This document shows positions 46,601 through 63,365 of a stretch of 64,000 nucleotides of DNA, in pieces; the stretch's first letter is position 1; each line of letters begins with the position of its first letter. The DNA comes from Halorubrum sp. 2020YC2. GTDB taxonomy: Archaea; Halobacteriota; Halobacteria; Halobacteriales; Haloferacaceae. The stretch is taken from NCBI RefSeq assembly GCF_018623055.1, contig NZ_CP076019.1, forward strand, positions 806,001 to 870,000, written 5' to 3'. A program made the position numbers and the translations under genes. The notes under the pieces were generated by a model. The model saw nothing but the letters and a program-made list of their open reading frames with translations, made no database searches and was not told the origin of the DNA.

Positions 46601-46789
46601 CCCGATCGGGGTGACCTCGTACGCCGAGGCGTCGGTCGCGTACAGCCGCCTCGAGTAGTCGTCGAACCGCACGTCGCCGTCGACGCGGCGGTCGAGCGCG
46701 TCGACGAGGTCCGGCCGTTCCACCGCGCCGCCAGTGTAGTCGAAGTCCCCGCCGTCCGTCGGCTCCGGGTCCGGGGTGTTAGTCGCCAT
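43697..46789 (-). CDS. FAD-linked oxidase fused to Fe-S/CCG domains (D-lactate/glycolate dehydrogenase type)
   Basis: This 1,030-residue fusion begins with an FAD_binding_4 domain (PRGGGTSLAGQTVNEAVVLD and SAVGGAIGNNSTGSHSLKYG), then an FAD-oxidase C domain. A 4Fe-4S region follows (CHGCGGCRGPQETTGGVMCP and CVGCKGCKVDCPSGVDMAKL), then a C-terminal CCG segment (SYHGHCHQKA-type and DSSCCGMAGSFGYEAEHYSM). This is the GlcD-GlcF or Dld layout that oxidises D-lactate or glycolate and passes electrons to quinone or a carrier. It is divergent from lutC. Confidence 0.93.
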   Translation of the reverse strand: MATNTPDPEPTDGGDFDYTGGAVERPDLVDALDRRVDGDVRFDDYSRRLYATDASAYEVTPIGVVIPESTADVAAVHEYCFEEEIPVLPRGGGTSLAGQTVNEAVVLDLTGEMDGVRSTDPDARTARVQAGAYVGDLNAAVEDAGLKFAPDPAWRDKSAVGGAIGNNSTGSHSLKYGKTDHYVEELEVVLADGTVTTFGEVAVADLRESADPEADDLLPRIYAEVVRVLDEEADEIDDRFPELKRNVSGYNLDRLLAEHRGEYGEEGVVNLGRLMAGSEGTLATVTEATVSLVEIPETKAVALLTYDDLLDAMEDVAACLEHDPAAVEVMDDVLLGLAADTPEFEDVVGMLPDGTDSVLLVEFYAESDAEGKRKVADLIADRVGAAANGGAADGDGAAVDTAADPSDGAAETTSHPRRAAHAMEAHDPAKRDRFWKMRKAGLPILLSRTTDEKHISFIEDCAIPPEHLPEYTREFQQILEDNDTFATFYAHAGPGVLHIRPLINTKQVDDVDAMVDIADRVTDAVVRLGGSVSGEHGDGRARTQWNRKLYGDDLWEAFRDLKTAFDPDWLLNPGNVCGDSDMSENLRFDADYEYDAGFDPAMEWAVDNGMQGMVELCHGCGGCRGPQETTGGVMCPTYRASDEEIQSTRGRANALRGAISGELPDDPTDDEFVTEVMDLCVGCKGCKVDCPSGVDMAKLKAEVEHAHHEEHGVDLRTRLLGHFESLAPLASKFAPLSNLPNKIPGSGLLAEKALGIARERDLPTFRSETLVDWFEARGGAGVPREEAARDVLLFPDVYTTYTNPGAGKAAVRVLEAANCHVEIPDVDGSGRPPHSKGMLDVSRATARDAVETLAPDVRDGWDVVVVEPSDAVMLQSDYHDLLDGGASDVPDADVAAVSESAYGVMEYVDVRRLDEDLSLDAPTESLTYHGHCHQKATKKDHHAVGVLRRAGYGVDPLDSSCCGMAGSFGYEAEHYSMSKAIGETLFEQVDASAGDALVAPGTSCRTQLEEGPGEVPEPAHPIEKLAAALA

Positions 46790-46947
46790 GAGAACTACTC
46801 ACGGTCGAGCGATGAAAAAGCTCCTGCCGTCCGCGCCTCGCGGGAACTCGGTGGTTCGAGACGCGCCGCCGACGGCCCCCTCGGGCGACGGTTCTGCGCC
46901 CCGAGAACGGCCGCAACACCCATATGCCGTCCGGCGAACAATCGTTC

Positions 46948-47505
46948 ATGACACTCGCAGACACGTCGGCGTTCACCGGTCGGCTCGACGACCTCGGCGT
47001 CGCGGTCTCCGCGGGGCCGCCGGCGGAGTGCGCGGCCATGATCGACGCGGCCGCCGGCGAGCCGGCGGTCGGGGTTCCCCTCGCGCGCTCGGGACCGGAC
47101 GGGTTCGTCGACTCGCCCGCGGCGCTGCCGGACCGAGTGGAGACGGACCCGACGACCGCCGCCCTCCGGGCGGCCCACACCGGCGTCACGGCGGCGTCGC
47201 TCGGCGTGGCCGAGTACGGCAGCGTCGCGCTGGAGGCCGACCCGGCCGGGACGGAGCCGGTGAGCCTCTTCGTCGACCGCCACGTCGTCGTCCTCCGCGA
47301 GCGCGACCTCGTCCCGGACATGCCCGACGCCTTCGAGTGGCTCGGCCCGCGGGCGCGCGACGAGTCGGTCGACGTGGTGTTCGCGACCGGGCCGAGCGCC
47401 ACCGCGGACATGGGCGGCCTCGTCCACGGCGCGCACGGGCCGAAGGAGGTCCACGTGGTGCTGTTGCGGGACGATTTCGACGACGAGGCGGAGGTAGACC
47501 GATGA
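46948..47505 (+). CDS. lutC: LUD-domain protein, LutC type
   Basis: The 185-residue LUD domain protein shows TGVTAASLGVAEYGSVALEA, VDRHVVVLRERDLVPDMPDA and FATGPSATADMGGLVHGAHG then PKEVHVVLL, the LutC/YkgG signature. LutC is a subunit of L-lactate oxidation. ATG 46948 is preferred; an in-frame ATG at 46924 would add 8 residues. It overlaps the next gene (ATGA) and is divergent from the FAD/Fe-S dehydrogenase. Confidence 0.88.
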   Translation: MTLADTSAFTGRLDDLGVAVSAGPPAECAAMIDAAAGEPAVGVPLARSGPDGFVDSPAALPDRVETDPTTAALRAAHTGVTAASLGVAEYGSVALEADPAGTEPVSLFVDRHVVVLRERDLVPDMPDAFEWLGPRARDESVDVVFATGPSATADMGGLVHGAHGPKEVHVVLLRDDFDDEAEVDR

Positions 47506-49793
47506 GCAGCGACGCCGACCCCGGCGGTCCCGCCGACCGCGCCGGCGCCGCGGAGGCGGACGCCCTCGACCGCGAGACGAAGGCCGAGCGCATCCGCGGG
47601 CTGCTGGCGACCGAGGGCGACGCGGTCGCGGCCAACACCCGCGGGTTCAACGAGGGGCGCTACGAGTCGACCGGTCGCCTCGACGGCTACGAGGCGCTGA
47701 AAGACGAGGCGCGCTCCATCAAGGAGGACGCGATCGAGCGGCTCCCGGAGCTCATTGACGAGGTGAGAGAGACGGTCGAGGCGAACGGCGGGACCGTCTA
47801 CCTCGCGGACGACGCGGCCGACGCGAACCGGTACATCCGCGAGGTCGCGGCCGAGCGCGGCGCGGAGCGCGCGGTGAAATCGAAGTCGATGACCTCCGAG
47901 GAGATCGAGGTGAACGACGCGCTCGCGGGCGACGGCGTGGAGGTCGTCGAGACCGACCTCGGGGAGTGGGTGCTCCAGCTGGCCGACGAGGAGCCGTCGC
48001 ACATCGTCGCCCCGGCGATCCACAAGTCCCGTGAGGGGATTTCGGAGCTGTTCGCGGAGCGGTTCGACCTCGACGACCCGCCCGAGACCGCCGAGGAGCT
48101 CACGATGTTCGCCCGCGAGCGGCTGGGCGACCTCGTGGAGGACGCCGACCTCGGGATGACCGGTGCGAACTTCGTCGCGGCCGACTCCGGAACGATGCTT
48201 CTGGTCACCAGCGAGGGCAACGCCCGGAAGACGGTGACCGCGACCGACACCCACGTCGCGGTCGCGGGCGTCGAGAAGCTCGTCCCGACCGTCGAGGACT
48301 TTTCCCCCTTCGTCGAGCTGATCGGGCGGTCGGGGACGGGGCAGGACGTGACCTCCTACATCTCGACGCTCACGCCGCCCGTGAACTCGCCCGTGCCCGA
48401 CTTCGCGGACGACGGGGCGCCGCTGGCCGACGGCTCGGAGTCCGACCGCGAGTTCCACCTCGTCTTAATCGACAACGGGCGCATGGCGATGCGCGACGAC
48501 GAGGAGCTGAAGGAGACGCTGTACTGTATCCGGTGTTCGGCCTGCTCGAACGCCTGCGGGAACTTCCAGAGCGTCGGCGGCCACGCGTTCGGCGGCGAGA
48601 CGTACTCCGGCGGCATCGCCACGGGCTGGGAGGCGGGAATCGAGGGGCTCGACACCGCCGCCGAGTTCAACGACCTCTGTACCGGCTGCTCGCGGTGCGT
48701 CCCGGCGTGTCCGGTCGGCATCGATATCCCGTGGATCAACACCGCGGTCCGCGACCGGATCAACCGCGGCGAGGCCGACCCGAGCCAGCTCGACTGGGCG
48801 TTCGAGGAGCTGGTCCCCGACGAGGAGCCGGGCGGCCTCGATCTGGCCACCCGACTGGTCGGCAACTACGCGACGCTCGCGGAGTGGGGGCACAGGACCG
48901 CACCGGTCGCGAACCGGCTCGCGAACGCCGGCCCGCTGCGCGCGCTCGCGGAGCGGGTCGCCGGGATCGACCGCCGCCGCGACCTCCCCGAGTTCGCGCG
49001 CGAGTCGCTCGTCGAGTGGTTCGAGGCCCGCGGCGGCCCGGCGGTCCCGGCCGACGAGACGACCCGCGAGGCGGTCGTCTACCCCGACACCGCGACGAAC
49101 TACGTCGACGTCGAGCGCGGGAAGGCGACCGTCCGGGCGCTGGAGGCGCTCGGCGTCCGCGTCGCGGTTCCGGACCTCCCCGGGAGCGGTCGCCCGCCGC
49201 TCTCGCAGGGGATGATCGCGACCGCCGAGTCGGCCGCCGAGGACGTGTACGCCGGGCTGGCGAGCCACGTCGACGCCGGGCGCGACGTGGTGGTGATCGA
49301 GCCGAGCGACCTCGCGACGTTCCGCCGCGAGTACGAGCGGTTCCTCCCGCGCGAGTCGTACGAGCGGCTCGCGGACGCGAGCTACGACGTGATGGAGTAC
49401 GTCTTCGGCCTGCTGGAGAACGGCGGCGACCCGGCGGCGCTGCGCGCGCCGAGCGAGGGCACCGGCCCGGTGGCCGCCGGGAAGCGGATCGCGTACCACC
49501 CGCACTGTCAGGCCCGCACGGTCGAAGTGAGCGAGTACGCGACCGCGACCTTCGAGCGGCTCGGCTACGACGTGCGCGTCTCCGACACGGAGTGTTGCGG
49601 GATGGCCGGCTCGTTCGGCTACAAGAGCGACTACTACGAGCTGAGCATGGACGTCGGGGAGCCGCTCCGCGAGCAGTTCGGGGACACCGACCGCACCGTC
49701 GTCGCGCCGGGCACGTCCTGTACCGAACAGCTCGACGCGCTGCTGGACTCGTCCCCGCGACACCCGATCGAAGTCGTGGCGCCGCGGGAGTGA
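47502..49793 (+). CDS. lutB: LutB-LutA fusion (L-lactate oxidation Fe-S protein)
   Basis: The 763-residue protein has an N-terminal LUD/LutB domain (SKSMTSEEIEVNDALAGDGV, TGANFVAADSGTMLLVTSEG). Two 4Fe-4S motifs follow (CIRCSACSNACGNFQSVGGH, CTGCSRCVPACPVGIDIPWI). The C-terminal LutA/CCG-like half ends with DTECCGMAGSFGYKSDYYEL and VAPGTSCTEQLDALLDSSPR. LutA and LutB are separate in most bacteria; the fusion puts the electron path in one chain. It is coupled to lutC and lies beside a D-lactate-type dehydrogenase, so the locus may oxidise both lactate isomers. Confidence 0.92.
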   Translation: MSSDADPGGPADRAGAAEADALDRETKAERIRGLLATEGDAVAANTRGFNEGRYESTGRLDGYEALKDEARSIKEDAIERLPELIDEVRETVEANGGTVYLADDAADANRYIREVAAERGAERAVKSKSMTSEEIEVNDALAGDGVEVVETDLGEWVLQLADEEPSHIVAPAIHKSREGISELFAERFDLDDPPETAEELTMFARERLGDLVEDADLGMTGANFVAADSGTMLLVTSEGNARKTVTATDTHVAVAGVEKLVPTVEDFSPFVELIGRSGTGQDVTSYISTLTPPVNSPVPDFADDGAPLADGSESDREFHLVLIDNGRMAMRDDEELKETLYCIRCSACSNACGNFQSVGGHAFGGETYSGGIATGWEAGIEGLDTAAEFNDLCTGCSRCVPACPVGIDIPWINTAVRDRINRGEADPSQLDWAFEELVPDEEPGGLDLATRLVGNYATLAEWGHRTAPVANRLANAGPLRALAERVAGIDRRRDLPEFARESLVEWFEARGGPAVPADETTREAVVYPDTATNYVDVERGKATVRALEALGVRVAVPDLPGSGRPPLSQGMIATAESAAEDVYAGLASHVDAGRDVVVIEPSDLATFRREYERFLPRESYERLADASYDVMEYVFGLLENGGDPAALRAPSEGTGPVAAGKRIAYHPHCQARTVEVSEYATATFERLGYDVRVSDTECCGMAGSFGYKSDYYELSMDVGEPLREQFGDTDRTVVAPGTSCTEQLDALLDSSPRHPIEVVAPRE

Positions 49794-53935: not shown

Positions 53936-54880
53936 TTAGTACTCGATAGCGGCGGAGTAGCGATTCAACGCCAGCACGACGCCGGCGCCGACGAGCGCCG
54001 CGAGCGCGAACCGTGGCGCGGCCGCCCGCCACGACTCGCCGGTCTCGACCAGCGTGCCCGTCGTCTCGACGAGGGGCGCGCGGAGCGCGCCGACGACGAG
54101 GCTCACGAGGAACGCCATCGTCGCGGCGCGGGCGCGGGAGAGCGCGTACCGGACGGCGTGCGCGATGGTGACCAGTCCGACGACGCCGCCGGCGCAGAAC
54201 GCGGCGACGACCGGCGCGGTCTCGACGACCCCGCCCGCGCCCCGGCCCAGCGCGAGCGCGACGACGCCGTCGACGAACCGCCCCACTGTCCCCGCCATGT
54301 AGTCGTACTGGCCGAGGACGATGAGCAGCAGCGAACCGGAGATGCCGGGGAGGATCATCGCGCTGACCGCCACCGCGCCCGCGACGGCGACGACGGGCAG
54401 CGAGCTCGCGACCGCGGCGGAGGCGTAGCCGGACGCGAGGAACGCGGCCGCGAACCCGCCGAACGCGGCCGCCTTCCGGCGCGGCGTCGAGAGGTCGACG
54501 TCCGCGAGGAGCACGGCCGCGCTCGCGGCGATCAGTCCGAAGAAGAAGCCGTAGGTCGCGACCGGGCGGGTCGCGAGCAGGTAGTCGACGCCGCTCAACA
54601 CCGCGACGACCGCGGTGGCGATCCCCGCGCCCAGCGCGAGCAGGAAGCCGGCGTCGAGCTCGCGGACCGCGGTCAGCGCGTCCGCGCGGTCCGCCGAGCG
54701 AACTCCCGCGAGTATCCGCCGGAGCCGCGAGGGGGTCGCGGCCGTGATCGCGGCCACGAGCCGCTCGTAGACACCGACGATGAGCGCGATGGTGCCGCCG
54801 GAGACGCCCGGCACGGCGTCGGCGCTCCCCATCGCCACGCCCTTCAGGTACAGTGTCGCCCACTCGCGGAGTTCGGCCAT
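53936..54880 (-). CDS. popT: DUF368 polyprenyl-phosphate transporter (PopT family)
   Basis: The 314-residue membrane protein starts LKGVAMGSADAVPGVSGGTI, the family hallmark, with about ten hydrophobic segments and a second copy of the motif, MILPGISGSLLLIVLGQYDY. DUF368 proteins in bacteria flip undecaprenyl phosphate back across the membrane. Here it is next to aglB, and the likely lipid is dolichyl phosphate recycled after N-glycosylation (inference). It is cotranscribed or at least codirectional with aglB. Confidence 0.9.
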   Translation of the reverse strand: MAELREWATLYLKGVAMGSADAVPGVSGGTIALIVGVYERLVAAITAATPSRLRRILAGVRSADRADALTAVRELDAGFLLALGAGIATAVVAVLSGVDYLLATRPVATYGFFFGLIAASAAVLLADVDLSTPRRKAAAFGGFAAAFLASGYASAAVASSLPVVAVAGAVAVSAMILPGISGSLLLIVLGQYDYMAGTVGRFVDGVVALALGRGAGGVVETAPVVAAFCAGGVVGLVTIAHAVRYALSRARAATMAFLVSLVVGALRAPLVETTGTLVETGESWRAAAPRFALAALVGAGVVLALNRYSAAIEY

Positions 54881-54947
54881 CTGCTCGCACGAAGCGCAGC
54901 CGCGGTAAAGAAGGGTGGGATCGCGCGACTGCGTCGACCGCGGGTCG

Positions 54948-54985
54948 GCGCCCGCGTCAGTTCGGTGCGCCCGCGTCAGTTCGGT
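54948..54985. repeat. 19-bp tandem duplication across the aglB stop
   Basis: The 19-nt unit beginning GCGCCCGCGTCAG occurs at 54948-54966 and exactly again at 54967-54985. On the minus strand it includes the last codons and TGA of aglB, so the stop is duplicated downstream. Confidence 0.9.
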
Positions 54986-57900
54986 GCGGTCGCGGTCGTC
55001 GCCGTCGCCTCGGACGGTTCGACTCCGATTAGCGACCCCGCCGTGTCGGTCGTGTTCGTGCTATTACCGCCCTCGCTCCCGCCGTCGTCGACGGGACACG
55101 CGGGGTCGCCGCTCGGACAGTCGACGACCCGCTCTTCGAGTTCGACGGTCGCCGCCGAGCCGTCGGTGCCGACGACCTGACCCTCTGTCACCTCGACCTG
55201 ACCGAACCGCTCGGTCGTGTACAGGTCGTCGCCGGTCGTCCGCTCGGTGGTGACGTTGTACGGCCCGGTCGCGCGGACGCTCGTGTTCGTGTACCCGTTC
55301 TCCGGCCCAAACTCGTCGTAGCCCGCCGTCGAGTACGGGAGCGTGAGCTCGAAGCTCCCGTCGTCGTCCGCGGTCGCGTACTGCGTGTACTCGAACGTCT
55401 GTCCGTTCGGCTTCTCCATCTCGACGGTCGCCTCGACCTCCTGACCGGGTTCGGCGCCCGACCCCTCGACGGTCGCGCCCGGCACCCGCTCGAACGTCTT
55501 GACGAAGTCGTCGCTGAACGCCCCGAACAGCGACTCGCCGAACGTCGCCTGGAGGTCGACGTCGAACCGCTGGGCGAGGATCTGCGCCTGCTGGGCGTAC
55601 GGCGACCGACCGGCCGACTGCGTGGCGTGGACCAGTCGGTAGTGTTCGAGCGCGTCGACGCGCTCCGAGGGAACCCCCATGACGCCGCCGACCTGCGCCG
55701 AGCCGTCCTCCTCGACGTACGACCGCGCGGCCGAGAGGTTTTCGAACCGACGGACCTGCTCGCCCTCGCTCGGCAGGACCTTGATGTCGACCTGGTCGCC
55801 AGATTGGGTCTGTGCCGTCTGCGGCTCCCAGTCGAGCACGACGGGGTCCGGCTCGACCGCGCTGCCGTAGTGCTGGTAGAGCCGGATCATCTGGCTCTCG
55901 TGGTAGCGCTGCGTGCGCGTCTGGAGGGCGGGTCGGAGGCCGCCCTGCTGCCCGTTCTGCCCCTCGACGCGCTCGTACAGCAGCTCGTTGAAGTCGCGAG
56001 CCGTCTCGTTGCCGCTGTAGAAGGTGACCGGGGCGTTGAACTTGGAGTTCGGCGACGCCATCTGCCAGTCGACCATCACGTAGCGGGTGTCGTTGCCCTC
56101 GGTGCTCTGGCTCGCGAGCACCTCCGCGGCCTCCTCCTCGCTCGGCGCGAGCAGGTAGTCCGCGGCCGTGCCGGCGTTCTGCTGGAACGGGTTGGCGTTC
56201 GGGATGCGCTCGGCGCGCGTGGTGATCCAGTGGCCGTAGTCCCACCACGACTGGACGCCGTACGCGCCCTCCGGGTACTCGAAGTCGCCGTTGGCGGGGC
56301 GCTCGTAGGTGCCGTATAACTCCATGGGGTTGTCCGCGCCCTCGAGTTCGCCCGGCTGGGGCGTCTCGTCGTTCATCCACTGGAGGCTCTCGTCCCACTG
56401 GACGACGCTGCCGGGGTTGCTGTCGTTGCCCGCCTGCCAGACGGGCGTGGCGACGCCGACGAGGGGAACGAGGAGCACGGCGAGCACCGCGACCACCGTG
56501 ATCACCTGCCAGCCCTCGATATCGCGGACGGCGTCGAGCGAGGCAAGATCCAAGGCGTCGAGCGCGACCTGAAGGAAGTACGCCGTCCCGACCGCGACGA
56601 TGACCGCGAGGTAGTAGTTGAAGCGTGTCTGGGTGAACGCGGCGCTCCCGATGAACGCCGCCCAGACGACGAAGTACAGCTCCTGGGTGTCGTACTCGAC
56701 GAGGAACGTCGCGCCGACGAGGAACGCAGCGGCGATGAGCAGGCCGATCACCTGCCAGTCGACGCCGACCACGCCGCCGACCGCGCCGTACGCCTGCGGG
56801 ACCGCGTAGACGGAGCCGACGACCGCGAGCGCGGCCGGGATGTACAGCGTGTGGTTGGTGTCGTCGGAGCGGTAGAGCGGGCGCGCAAGGATGTAAAGAA
56901 TCGCGGCGAGTGCGAGGAAGAAGGCGAACCCGTACTGTCCGAGGACGAAGTCGGTGAACGCGGCCTCTTGGAGCGGGGGCTGGGCCTCGCCGATGGTGCG
57001 GGTGCTAGCGCTTGCCGAGAAGCCGACGGTGTTGAGGAGATTCCCGACGAGCGTCGACCACAGCGACGGAATCGTGAGCCAGACGACGCCCGCGGACGCG
57101 AGGATGAGTCCACCAACCGCGGGCGGATAGGTCGTCGCGTCGAGGTCGCGCGACTCCCACTCGCGGGCGAGCCACGCGAGGAAGACGGCGCCGACGGCGA
57201 CGCCGAGCGGGAGGACCACCTGCGTGAGCGAGTAGCTGGTGACCCCGAAATCAAACTTGTTGAGCGGGATCACCTGCATGAGACCGGCGACGCCCATCGA
57301 CACCGCGCCAGCGAAGGCGATCGGCTCGGGACTCGTCCCGTGGCGCACGTCGCTCGTGATCTTTATCGCGAGGAAGATGCCGGTGAACCCGACCATGAGC
57401 ACGCCGGGCTGCCACGTCCACATGTAGAGGCCGAGCGCGACGCCCGCGGCGGCCGCGTACGCGGTCGGGCGCTTGAGCGCGTTCCAGTCCCGATCGACGA
57501 CGAGTTCCCACACCGGCTTCTCGCGCTCCGCGACGCCGAACGCGACGAGGAACGCGAGGACGGCGGTGCTCTGGAAGAGGACCTCGGCCGCGCTGTGGTC
57601 GGGGAAGCCGACGAGCGAGTACCGGAGGAAGGTGCCCGAGAACAGCGCCAGCGTCGCCGCGCCCGCGAGCGCGGGGACGCGATCGGTGAACTGACGCGCG
57701 ATGAAGTACGTCGGAATCGCGACGAGCGCACCGGCAATCGGGGCCATGATGAGCATGACTTCCTCGGTGCTCCCCATGACCGGGCGGGCGATCCAGACGC
57801 CGACGGCCATGATGTGGTCCCACAGCGTCCCGAACTGGCCGGCCGACCGGCCGAACGGGAAGCCGGTCCAGACGTCGAAGGGGAGGGTGTTCGGCCAGTT

Positions 57901-58113
57901 TTCGAGGAGGTAACTCGTCTCGCGGAAGTGATACCACGCGTCGTTGCCGCGGAAGTACACCTCGCCGTTGCGGACGAAGTTCCCGTACGATCGGAGGCGA
58001 GTCCACAACATGAACACGACGGCCCCGAGGAGGATCGGGACGTGGTACCACCGTTGGAGGACGTCGAGGGGAGATCCCTCGTCTCCCCCGACGGCGTCGG
58101 TTTGCTCGCTCAT
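54976..58113 (-). CDS. aglB: Oligosaccharyltransferase AglB (STT3)
   Basis: The 1,045-residue membrane protein has about 13 N-terminal transmembrane helices, then a soluble globular domain that begins with the catalytic WWDYGHW motif near residue 623. An early acidic DxD-like motif is in FRGNDAWYHFRE. AglB transfers a lipid-linked glycan from dolichyl phosphate to Asn in N-X-S/T of S-layer and other surface proteins. The C-terminal region is beta-rich and typical of haloarchaeal AglB. It heads the surface-glycan region and is divergent from a GT2 gene. Confidence 0.97.
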   Translation of the reverse strand: MSEQTDAVGGDEGSPLDVLQRWYHVPILLGAVVFMLWTRLRSYGNFVRNGEVYFRGNDAWYHFRETSYLLENWPNTLPFDVWTGFPFGRSAGQFGTLWDHIMAVGVWIARPVMGSTEEVMLIMAPIAGALVAIPTYFIARQFTDRVPALAGAATLALFSGTFLRYSLVGFPDHSAAEVLFQSTAVLAFLVAFGVAEREKPVWELVVDRDWNALKRPTAYAAAAGVALGLYMWTWQPGVLMVGFTGIFLAIKITSDVRHGTSPEPIAFAGAVSMGVAGLMQVIPLNKFDFGVTSYSLTQVVLPLGVAVGAVFLAWLAREWESRDLDATTYPPAVGGLILASAGVVWLTIPSLWSTLVGNLLNTVGFSASASTRTIGEAQPPLQEAAFTDFVLGQYGFAFFLALAAILYILARPLYRSDDTNHTLYIPAALAVVGSVYAVPQAYGAVGGVVGVDWQVIGLLIAAAFLVGATFLVEYDTQELYFVVWAAFIGSAAFTQTRFNYYLAVIVAVGTAYFLQVALDALDLASLDAVRDIEGWQVITVVAVLAVLLVPLVGVATPVWQAGNDSNPGSVVQWDESLQWMNDETPQPGELEGADNPMELYGTYERPANGDFEYPEGAYGVQSWWDYGHWITTRAERIPNANPFQQNAGTAADYLLAPSEEEAAEVLASQSTEGNDTRYVMVDWQMASPNSKFNAPVTFYSGNETARDFNELLYERVEGQNGQQGGLRPALQTRTQRYHESQMIRLYQHYGSAVEPDPVVLDWEPQTAQTQSGDQVDIKVLPSEGEQVRRFENLSAARSYVEEDGSAQVGGVMGVPSERVDALEHYRLVHATQSAGRSPYAQQAQILAQRFDVDLQATFGESLFGAFSDDFVKTFERVPGATVEGSGAEPGQEVEATVEMEKPNGQTFEYTQYATADDDGSFELTLPYSTAGYDEFGPENGYTNTSVRATGPYNVTTERTTGDDLYTTERFGQVEVTEGQVVGTDGSAATVELEERVVDCPSGDPACPVDDGGSEGGNSTNTTDTAGSLIGVEPSEATATTATAPN

Positions 58114-58210
58114 TACACGGTGTCACTCGCAAAACGTCCATAAGGCTTGTTATACCCGGCCGGCGGTCGGTTCAGAATCCTTATTGATCCGGACGGGAAA
58201 CGCGGAGTCG

Positions 58211-59149
58211 ATGAAGGTCTCCGTCGTCGTCTGTACGTACACGATGGACCGCTACGACGTCTTCACGGAGGCCGTCGAGAGCGCCCTCGCACAGACCTAC
58301 GACCCGGTCGAGGTCGTGCTCGTGATCGACGGTAACCCCGAGGTGTACGAGCGGGCGGTCGCGGACTTCGGCGACCGTGAGAACGTCGTGATCTCCGATA
58401 ACGACGAGAATCAGGGGATCTCCTACAGTCGGACGCGGGGCGCGGAGCTGGCGTCCGGAGAGGTCGTCGCGTTCATCGACGACGACGGCGTAGCCGAGGC
58501 GGACTGGATCGCGAGCCTCGTCGACGTGTACGAGGAGACGGACGCGATCGCGGCCGGCGGCGACGTACGCCCGAACTGGCAGGGGGAGCGGCCCGATTTC
58601 TTCCCCGAGGAGTTCTACTGGCTCGTGGGATGCGTCGAGCCGGACTTCGCCGAGGACGGCGAGGAGGTCCGGAACACGTACGGATCGAACATCTCCTACC
58701 GGCGAGCGGCGTTTCTGGAGGTCGGTGGGTACGACCCGAACACGGGTCGGAAGGGCGATAAACACCTACAGGCCCACGAGGCGCCGGTCGGGATTCGGCT
58801 GCTGGAGGAGTTCGGACGGGGAATGGTGTACACGGAGGACGCCGTCGTCCATCACACCCTGTTCGAGTACCGCGGGGAGTTCCGGTGGCTGGTGTCGCGA
58901 TCGTTCTGGCAGGGGTACTCCAAACGCGTGATGGATCTCCTGTATCCTGAGGCGCCCGATGCTAAAGGTGATTACCTGAAGTGGTTGCTGACGGACCGCG
59001 TGCCGCGCCGGCTGGAGGGGCTCGTTCGGTCGCCGTCGACCGCGGCGGTGACTCAGCTCGGCGCGATCGGAGCGTTCACCGCGGCCGTCGGGTTGGGGTA
59101 TCTGTACGCGATGGTAACGCCGGATCTGGTGGAGAAGGCGAACCAGTAG
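58211..59149 (+). CDS. GT2 glycosyltransferase (AglG/AglI-like)
   Basis: The 312-residue protein begins with GT-A motifs VVVCTYTMDRYDVFTEAVES, VLVIDGNPEVYER and AFIDDDGVAEADWI, where the DDD is the metal/nucleotide site. The C-terminus has two hydrophobic segments, giving membrane anchoring. It resembles haloarchaeal hexuronic-acid or glucosyl transferases of the AglG type that extend dolichol-linked glycan. It lies next to aglB; the sugar cannot be read from sequence. Confidence 0.9.
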   Translation: MKVSVVVCTYTMDRYDVFTEAVESALAQTYDPVEVVLVIDGNPEVYERAVADFGDRENVVISDNDENQGISYSRTRGAELASGEVVAFIDDDGVAEADWIASLVDVYEETDAIAAGGDVRPNWQGERPDFFPEEFYWLVGCVEPDFAEDGEEVRNTYGSNISYRRAAFLEVGGYDPNTGRKGDKHLQAHEAPVGIRLLEEFGRGMVYTEDAVVHHTLFEYRGEFRWLVSRSFWQGYSKRVMDLLYPEAPDAKGDYLKWLLTDRVPRRLEGLVRSPSTAAVTQLGAIGAFTAAVGLGYLYAMVTPDLVEKANQ

Positions 59150-62429: not shown

Positions 62430-63365
62430 TTATTTATAACCAAGCGAACGTAACCTTTCCTCAACGACCTCGGATCCCCCACGATCAAATGTAATGGGAG
62501 GATCACTCTTCACTTCACGGCGCTCATCTGCTGGTATCTCTAGCCATGGAACTCGATACAAGATCTCATTCCGAATGTACTCATCGGAGTGGCCGAATTT
62601 GGGTTTGGTGGCTGGGATGATCTTCTCACCCAACATTTCTCCATGATCAGCAGAAACCACCGTCTTTCCAGATAGGCTATTGATCAATGTCTCTACCTGT
62701 TCTAAAACGATATCAAGCGTCTCTTCATAGGCTTTTCGAGCCTTTCTTATCGAGATCTCGCCGTTTTCGATCAGCGTTGAAAAAGAAGCAGTATCCGATG
62801 TTTCATTACCGTACGCGAGATTTCGATTAAAACCGCTAATATTGTGGTCTTGCTGTAGTTCCTTTGCGGTCTCTCCAAGGTAAGGACGGTGTGGTTGCAT
62901 GAAGTGAACGATTAGCCGCTTATCAGGAAACTCCTCATACGCATCTAAGGCAGCGTCAACCACTTGTTCCGGAAGTACCGTTTCGTGCTCCTCATCCCAA
63001 GCGTTAAGATATAAGGGATCGATAGCGTGGAAAAGGTCGTCAGAGAGCTTTCCAGTATGAGGATTTCCAGTTACATACACAGTATCGTGGAATTCCTGGC
63101 CGACAAAATTACCCTGCATAAACTCCCAGCTTGACCCTCCATGAGAGATAACTGATGAGAGGTCACCGCGGATCTCGTTATGTTTCTCAAAATAGTCGAA
63201 TCGACACGCGTCAACGACGATCAAGTTGTCCCAGTCCTTTTTCATTACGTCAATAGCATTGCCCGAGTACTTTAGGTCGAACAGTAATCTTTGGATTTCC
63301 CAGCCGATATATCCTGGATTATTAAACAGCTTTTTTAAATTCCCAATTGTGTAGCGCTCTAGCAT
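62430..63365 (-). CDS. Sulfatase/alkaline-phosphatase-fold enzyme
   Basis: The 311-residue protein has NLIVVDACRFDYFEKHNEIR (metal-binding Asp and nucleophile region), GGSSWEFMQG, VHFMQPHRPYLGE and TVVSADHGEMLGEKI, the DHG metal motif of the superfamily. It is shorter than typical sulfatases. No signal peptide is seen. A modification or phosphoglycerol-type transfer role in surface glycan is plausible. A homologous gene is divergent from it. Confidence 0.88.
   Translation of the reverse strand: MLERYTIGNLKKLFNNPGYIGWEIQRLLFDLKYSGNAIDVMKKDWDNLIVVDACRFDYFEKHNEIRGDLSSVISHGGSSWEFMQGNFVGQEFHDTVYVTGNPHTGKLSDDLFHAIDPLYLNAWDEEHETVLPEQVVDAALDAYEEFPDKRLIVHFMQPHRPYLGETAKELQQDHNISGFNRNLAYGNETSDTASFSTLIENGEISIRKARKAYEETLDIVLEQVETLINSLSGKTVVSADHGEMLGEKIIPATKPKFGHSDEYIRNEILYRVPWLEIPADERREVKSDPPITFDRGGSEVVEERLRSLGYK

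Follow-up and report, generated by a model that had tools for sequence, protein, structure and literature searches.

The gene for AglB, the archaeal oligosaccharyltransferase, and popT, which encodes a homologue of the DUF368 (PF04018) polyprenyl-phosphate transporters, lie next to each other in the window analysed here, a 64,000-nucleotide stretch of the Halorubrum sp. 2020YC2 genome (contig NZ_CP076019.1, positions 806,001 to 870,000). Our comparisons indicate that aglB–popT is probably an ancestral haloarchaeal operon, one that couples use of the lipid carrier of N-glycosylation to its recovery. We searched 194 genomes (species) of the class Halobacteria for DUF368 and for AglB (TIGR04154), genomes outside the initial lists of matches being searched individually, and found the former in 192 and the latter in 193. 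The sequence-only reading of the window had proposed surveying the adjacency in other haloarchaea, and the pair recurs strongly: of the 191 genomes in which both genes have usable coordinates, 133 (70%) have popT following aglB in the same orientation, less than 1 kb downstream in 125 and 1.8–3.2 kb downstream in 8. Close placement in any other arrangement occurred in none of the 191, and adjacency is therefore far above chance. By family, given here as anonymous codes, the pair is linked in 64 of 69 genomes of f1, 13 of 13 of f2, 18 of 40 of f3, 19 of 48 of f4, 5 of 6 of f6, 6 of 6 of f7, 5 of 5 of f8, 2 of 2 of f9 and 1 of 2 of f10; linked loci with names come from Halorubrum and other Haloferacaceae and also from Haloterrigena (Natrialbaceae). 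One genome, G186, is without both genes, perhaps through a single assembly gap since the two are neighbours.

Both genes are read from the reverse strand of the window. The first of the pair, aglB (54,976–58,113), encodes 1,045 residues that match TIGR04154 at 902 bits (cutoff 450; 4e-271; residues 25–982), with STT3, AglB_core-like and AglB_L1 domains and the motifs GND, TIGE and WWDYG, the last at residue 623. A spacer of 95 bp (54,881–54,975, same strand) separates its stop codon from the start of popT (53,936–54,880; 314 residues), the product of which matches PF04018, 'undecaprenyl phosphate translocase-like', as its only domain (198 bits; cutoff 26; 2.4e-58; residues 17–270; profile positions 1–229 of 246). 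The earlier claim of a DUF368 gene beside aglB is thus confirmed, with both families above their cutoffs, and a whole-genome search showed popT to be the sole PF04018 gene in the 3.06-Mb genome. The NCBIfam PopT and VCA0040-type models score 169 and 95 bits, under their equivalog cutoffs of 400, and on these scores PopT is a member of the DUF368 family and no equivalog of the named bacterial proteins. A domain scan of the protein gave no match to PF09335, the VTT domain of DedA proteins.

PopT carries the hallmarks of its family. Its first repeat motif, DAVPGVSGGT, occupies residues 21–30 (54,791–54,820, reverse strand) and its second, LPGISG, residues 177–182 (54,335–54,352, reverse strand); D21, P24-G25-x-S27-G28, T30 and P178-G179-x-S181-G182 are invariant across 87 archaeal PopTs. 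The same residues, with both PGxSG motifs, recur in two bacterial DUF368 proteins, to which PopT is ∼34% identical over the alignment. Alignment of the N-terminal with the C-terminal half of the protein scored 78, compared with 48 ± 8 for shuffled sequences (0 of 300 shuffles as high), as expected for an internally repeated transporter. The AlphaFold2 model is all-helical and confident (mean predicted local distance difference test score, pLDDT, 93.9). Sequence search found no relatives of solved structure and a Foldseek comparison of the model with the PDB returned only noise (best E 0.24, template modelling (TM) score ∼0.2), so that structure contributes only the confident helical model.

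The junction between the two genes was read base by base in 82 loci. Overlaps were seen in 15 and spacers of 0–10 nt in 32, the rest falling at 11–100 nt (24), 101–160 nt (7) or more than 1 kb (4). Starts were those of the longest open reading frame (ORF), so the long overlaps (−17, −95 and −116) are probably start-site artefacts; many genera have clean junctions of 4 nt (ATGA, GTGA) or 1 nt (TAATG, TGATG). Given how often the genes overlap or are separated by 0–10 nt, the pair very probably forms an operon. Compared with the overlapping or near-touching genes of most orthologous loci, the 95-bp spacer in the window is wide. At 54,950–54,987 a 19-bp unit (GCCCGCGTCAGTTCGGTGC, forward strand) is present in two tandem copies that exactly span the aglB stop codon, which gives two potential stops and a spacer longer than in many relatives. 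A DUF368–AglB fusion was considered for G133 and G120 and rejected, the long open frames around popT being in a different frame from aglB.

We also surveyed the neighbourhood of aglB in 68 regions, with roughly one for each genus, using a crude gene-calling method based on third-codon-position GC content (GC3). The commonest neighbour is popT, found in 46 regions, always on the same strand and 42 times at position +1. An AglG-type gene lies near aglB, divergently oriented, in at least 34 regions, a lower bound since the method missed the window's own aglG. Proteins of the sulfatase/alkaline-phosphatase fold are encoded beside aglB in 24 regions and a Wzx/MATE-like multi-pass protein (cluster 6, its family judged from sequence alone) nearby in 17. 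The intervening gene in loci L092 and L095 encodes an AglM-type UDP-glucose dehydrogenase.

A PopT tree of 92 rows, rooted on other classes and built by a quick search with Shimodaira–Hasegawa-like approximate likelihood-ratio test (SH-aLRT) support, places the linked copies on deep branches of the class. Most of the unlinked copies, 23 from f3 and f4, group as a single derived clade (SH-aLRT 95), here called PopT-B, which lies together with the window's family inside one larger clade. The remaining unlinked rows are isolated cases of separation scattered over the tree, and some f4 genomes such as G005 and G025 have a linked PopT plus PopT-B. The simplest reading of this tree is one ancestral aglB–popT pair, with occasional separation and with replacement or addition by PopT-B in two families. 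By the same topology the gene order is inherited and not repeatedly invented, and it has survived the divergence of PopT to ∼41% identity. The PopT-B loci are L146–L148, L150–L160, L162–L165 and L167–L171; in six regions of Natrialbaceae type PopT-B has a divergent family-2 glycosyltransferase for a neighbour and a methyltransferase close by. Pairing of PopT-B with an AglB paralogue was also considered and dropped, the coordinates of a few genomes giving no such pairing.

What is known of the family and of the pathway suggests why these genes might be kept together. The description of DUF368 as a bacterial undecaprenyl-phosphate flippase, from which the sequence-only reading started, is borne out in so far as this is a published candidate family for translocation of undecaprenyl phosphate (C55-P; PMC9876793). 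Loss of DUF368 in bacteria leaves more C55-P on the surface, and HVO_RS12060 of Haloferax volcanii at least partly complements Vibrio cholerae lacking VCA0040 (PMC9876793). In haloarchaeal N-glycosylation the carrier is dolichyl phosphate (DolP) and AglB transfers the glycan on the outside of the cell (PMC3871713, PMC11980604); the available text of PMC4476749 describes a monophosphate carrier for archaeal glycans characterised before 2015. Haloarchaeal N-glycans are thus assembled on DolP, a monophosphate, and after an outward flip AglB passes them to protein; by the logic of the established pathway, this transfer must leave DolP without its glycan in the outer leaflet. PopT would then move DolP back to the cytoplasmic leaflet, presumably in this direction, for reloading by AglJ/AglG-type glycosyltransferases; since the carrier link is a monophosphate, no phosphatase would be needed before re-use. 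We infer for PopT co-transcription with aglB, DolP as substrate, inward direction and N-glycosylation as main client, and inward return of DolP would agree with the protein's family, with its near-universal presence and with the linkage of its gene. A tighter version, in which the production of AglB and PopT is coupled, the two perhaps forming a complex, and released DolP is passed directly to a DolP-specific PopT, is tentative and on balance rather unlikely.

Return of the DolP freed across the membrane is a gap in N-glycosylation, the cited pathway papers naming outward flippases and no return carrier. The conserved pair offers a named candidate, and one in haloarchaea amenable to genetics, together with a simple prediction, which makes the recycling step directly testable. 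It also ties a bacterial polyprenyl-phosphate transporter family, already suspected of acting across domains, to a pathway based on dolichol and to one specific client enzyme. If the coupled module is true, PopT would be the first protein identified as returning DolP in an archaeal N-glycosylation pathway.

Several points weigh against an operon that couples carrier use and recovery. The genes are unlinked in 58 of the 191 species, being more than 5 kb apart in 31 and on different contigs in 27, where in draft assemblies linkage is not strictly excludable. G021 has AglB and no PopT, the only such genome in the survey, and G117 has PopT-B and no TIGR04154-grade AglB. Species are not independent observations, the linkage having come down from a single ancestor; proteins with DedA/VTT domains occur in 40 of 40 haloarchaea checked; and we found no archaeal mutant, transport or lipid data in the open literature searched. 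G021 (locus L103) is a 1.9-Mb genome, the sole sampled member of its family, with two DedA/VTT proteins.

These points bear differently on the alternatives. A real possibility, though not the one we expect, is that PopT is a general polyprenyl-phosphate recycler for all DolP pathways (N-glycans, DolP-mannose and exopolysaccharide) with no dedicated pairing to aglB, its place there reflecting AglB as the main DolP consumer. The transport mechanism would be the same as in the coupled operon and only the clientele would differ. That the PopT of many species in two families is the unlinked PopT-B and that G117 keeps a PopT but has no TIGR04154-grade AglB both speak for such a role, as do the many envelope polymers served by the bacterial family (PMC9876793) and the DolP-using exopolysaccharide pathway of Haloarcula described in the available text of PMC9943897; the pairing, however, is specific, ancestral and translationally close with aglB and not with other users of DolP. 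It is less likely that DedA-type proteins return DolP, leaving PopT as a back-up called on only under certain conditions, such as alkaline pH or high sodium. The haloarchaea checked have one to five DedA/VTT copies each, in bacteria the redundancy of DUF368 with DedA proteins depends on pH and sodium (PMC9876793), and G021 manages with AglB and DedA/VTT proteins but no PopT. Yet presence in 192 of 194 species would be unusual for a dispensable back-up, and many subfamilies of DedA do not flip polyprenyl phosphate (PMC10127716), the haloarchaeal proteins being assigned to the level of the VTT domain only.

Two further explanations fare worse. The adjacency might be a relic, ancestral gene order preserved by chance and of no functional meaning, since the arrangement in all linked species seems to go back to a single ancestral one, so that the 133 cannot be counted as independent observations. 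We regard this as very improbable. The other neighbours of aglB have undergone far more reshuffling, and unlinked PopT-B, taken as a yardstick for the fluidity of gene order, retains its best-kept neighbour in only 7 of 23 regions, within just two families. The 4-nt and 1-nt overlap junctions and the biochemical fit of AglB and PopT argue against a relic as well. That PopT, a membrane protein encoded in a glycosylation locus and with a direction unreadable from sequence, flips DolP outward with its glycan attached, instead of carrying bare DolP back, is scarcely credible, as the outward step is assigned to AglR and Agl15 in H. volcanii and Agl29 in Halobacterium salinarum, the Wzx/MATE-like protein recurs near aglB, and the bacterial DUF368 phenotype is bare C55-P accumulating outside (PMC9876793).

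Beyond the class, other classes of the same phylum were surveyed. DUF368 is present in 22 of ∼133 sampled genomes, and none of the 22 has an STT3/AglB gene within 5 kb of it. Most sampled archaea of these classes are thus without PopT, which is not a general archaeal solution; the claim concerns haloarchaea and not Archaea. Return of the dolichyl carrier had earlier been put forward as a missing step in archaeal N-glycosylation: the haloarchaeal linkage upholds this in part, but the wording was too wide, and even within the class it is narrowed by the 30% of species that are unlinked and by the DedA/VTT proteins of all 40 genomes checked. In family f29 the genes are 12–14 kb apart with uracil-salvage genes beside popT, an arrangement that we did not count as a cluster. 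Plasmid and phage DUF368 matches were partial and almost all bacterial, and were set aside; among them, three Staphylococcus phage records (OR850095, PV200784 and OR844991) have partial matches that are possibly host DNA.

Compared with known DUF368/PopT proteins (VCA0040 of V. cholerae, SAOUHSC_00846 of Staphylococcus aureus and HVO_RS12060 of H. volcanii), the window's PopT has the same domain and the same repeat motifs. It differs from the bacterial ones in that the host carrier is dolichyl and not undecaprenyl phosphate, in the operon-like pairing of its gene with that of an oligosaccharyltransferase and in scoring under the equivalog cutoffs. DedA/UptA (PF09335) undecaprenyl-phosphate flippases have the same proposed job and occur in the same genomes, but PopT belongs to a different Pfam family. 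The published agl clusters of H. volcanii, Halorubrum lacusprofundi and Hbt. salinarum are alike in having glycosyltransferase and sulfatase-like genes to one side of aglB. They were defined from aglB to aglJ, or from Hlac_1062 (aglB) to Hlac_1075, so that the gene just past aglB falls outside; the papers describing them do not name DUF368, and since the clusters end at aglB and run the other way, popT may have been passed over. No paper in the open literature searched contained both 'DUF368' and 'oligosaccharyltransferase', subscription papers, including the concurrent PopT paper (ref. 41 of PMC9876793), being outside that search, and priority for the connection is not certain.

On the other side of aglB in the window, an intergenic region at 58,114–58,210, presumed to hold the promoters of both flanking genes, leads to a divergent gene (58,211–59,149, forward strand) for an AglG-type glucosyl-dolichyl-phosphate glucuronosyltransferase (NF041394, 500 bits; cutoff 440). 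The sequence-only reading had not mentioned this gene. Its likely start is the ATG at ∼58,211; the ORF list begins it at 57,944 and the family match starts at residue 6 of the frame 58,196–59,149. The window also has a weakly sulfatase-like ORF at 62,430–63,365 which, given that genes of this kind in Hbt. salinarum were shown to encode N-glycan sulfotransferases (PMC11980604), may be a sulfotransferase. Downstream of the aglB–popT pair is an ORF for a LutB-type iron-sulfur protein (46,776–49,793). Directly downstream of aglB, locus L105 has a gene for a LUD-domain protein and many other genomes have glycerol-metabolism genes.

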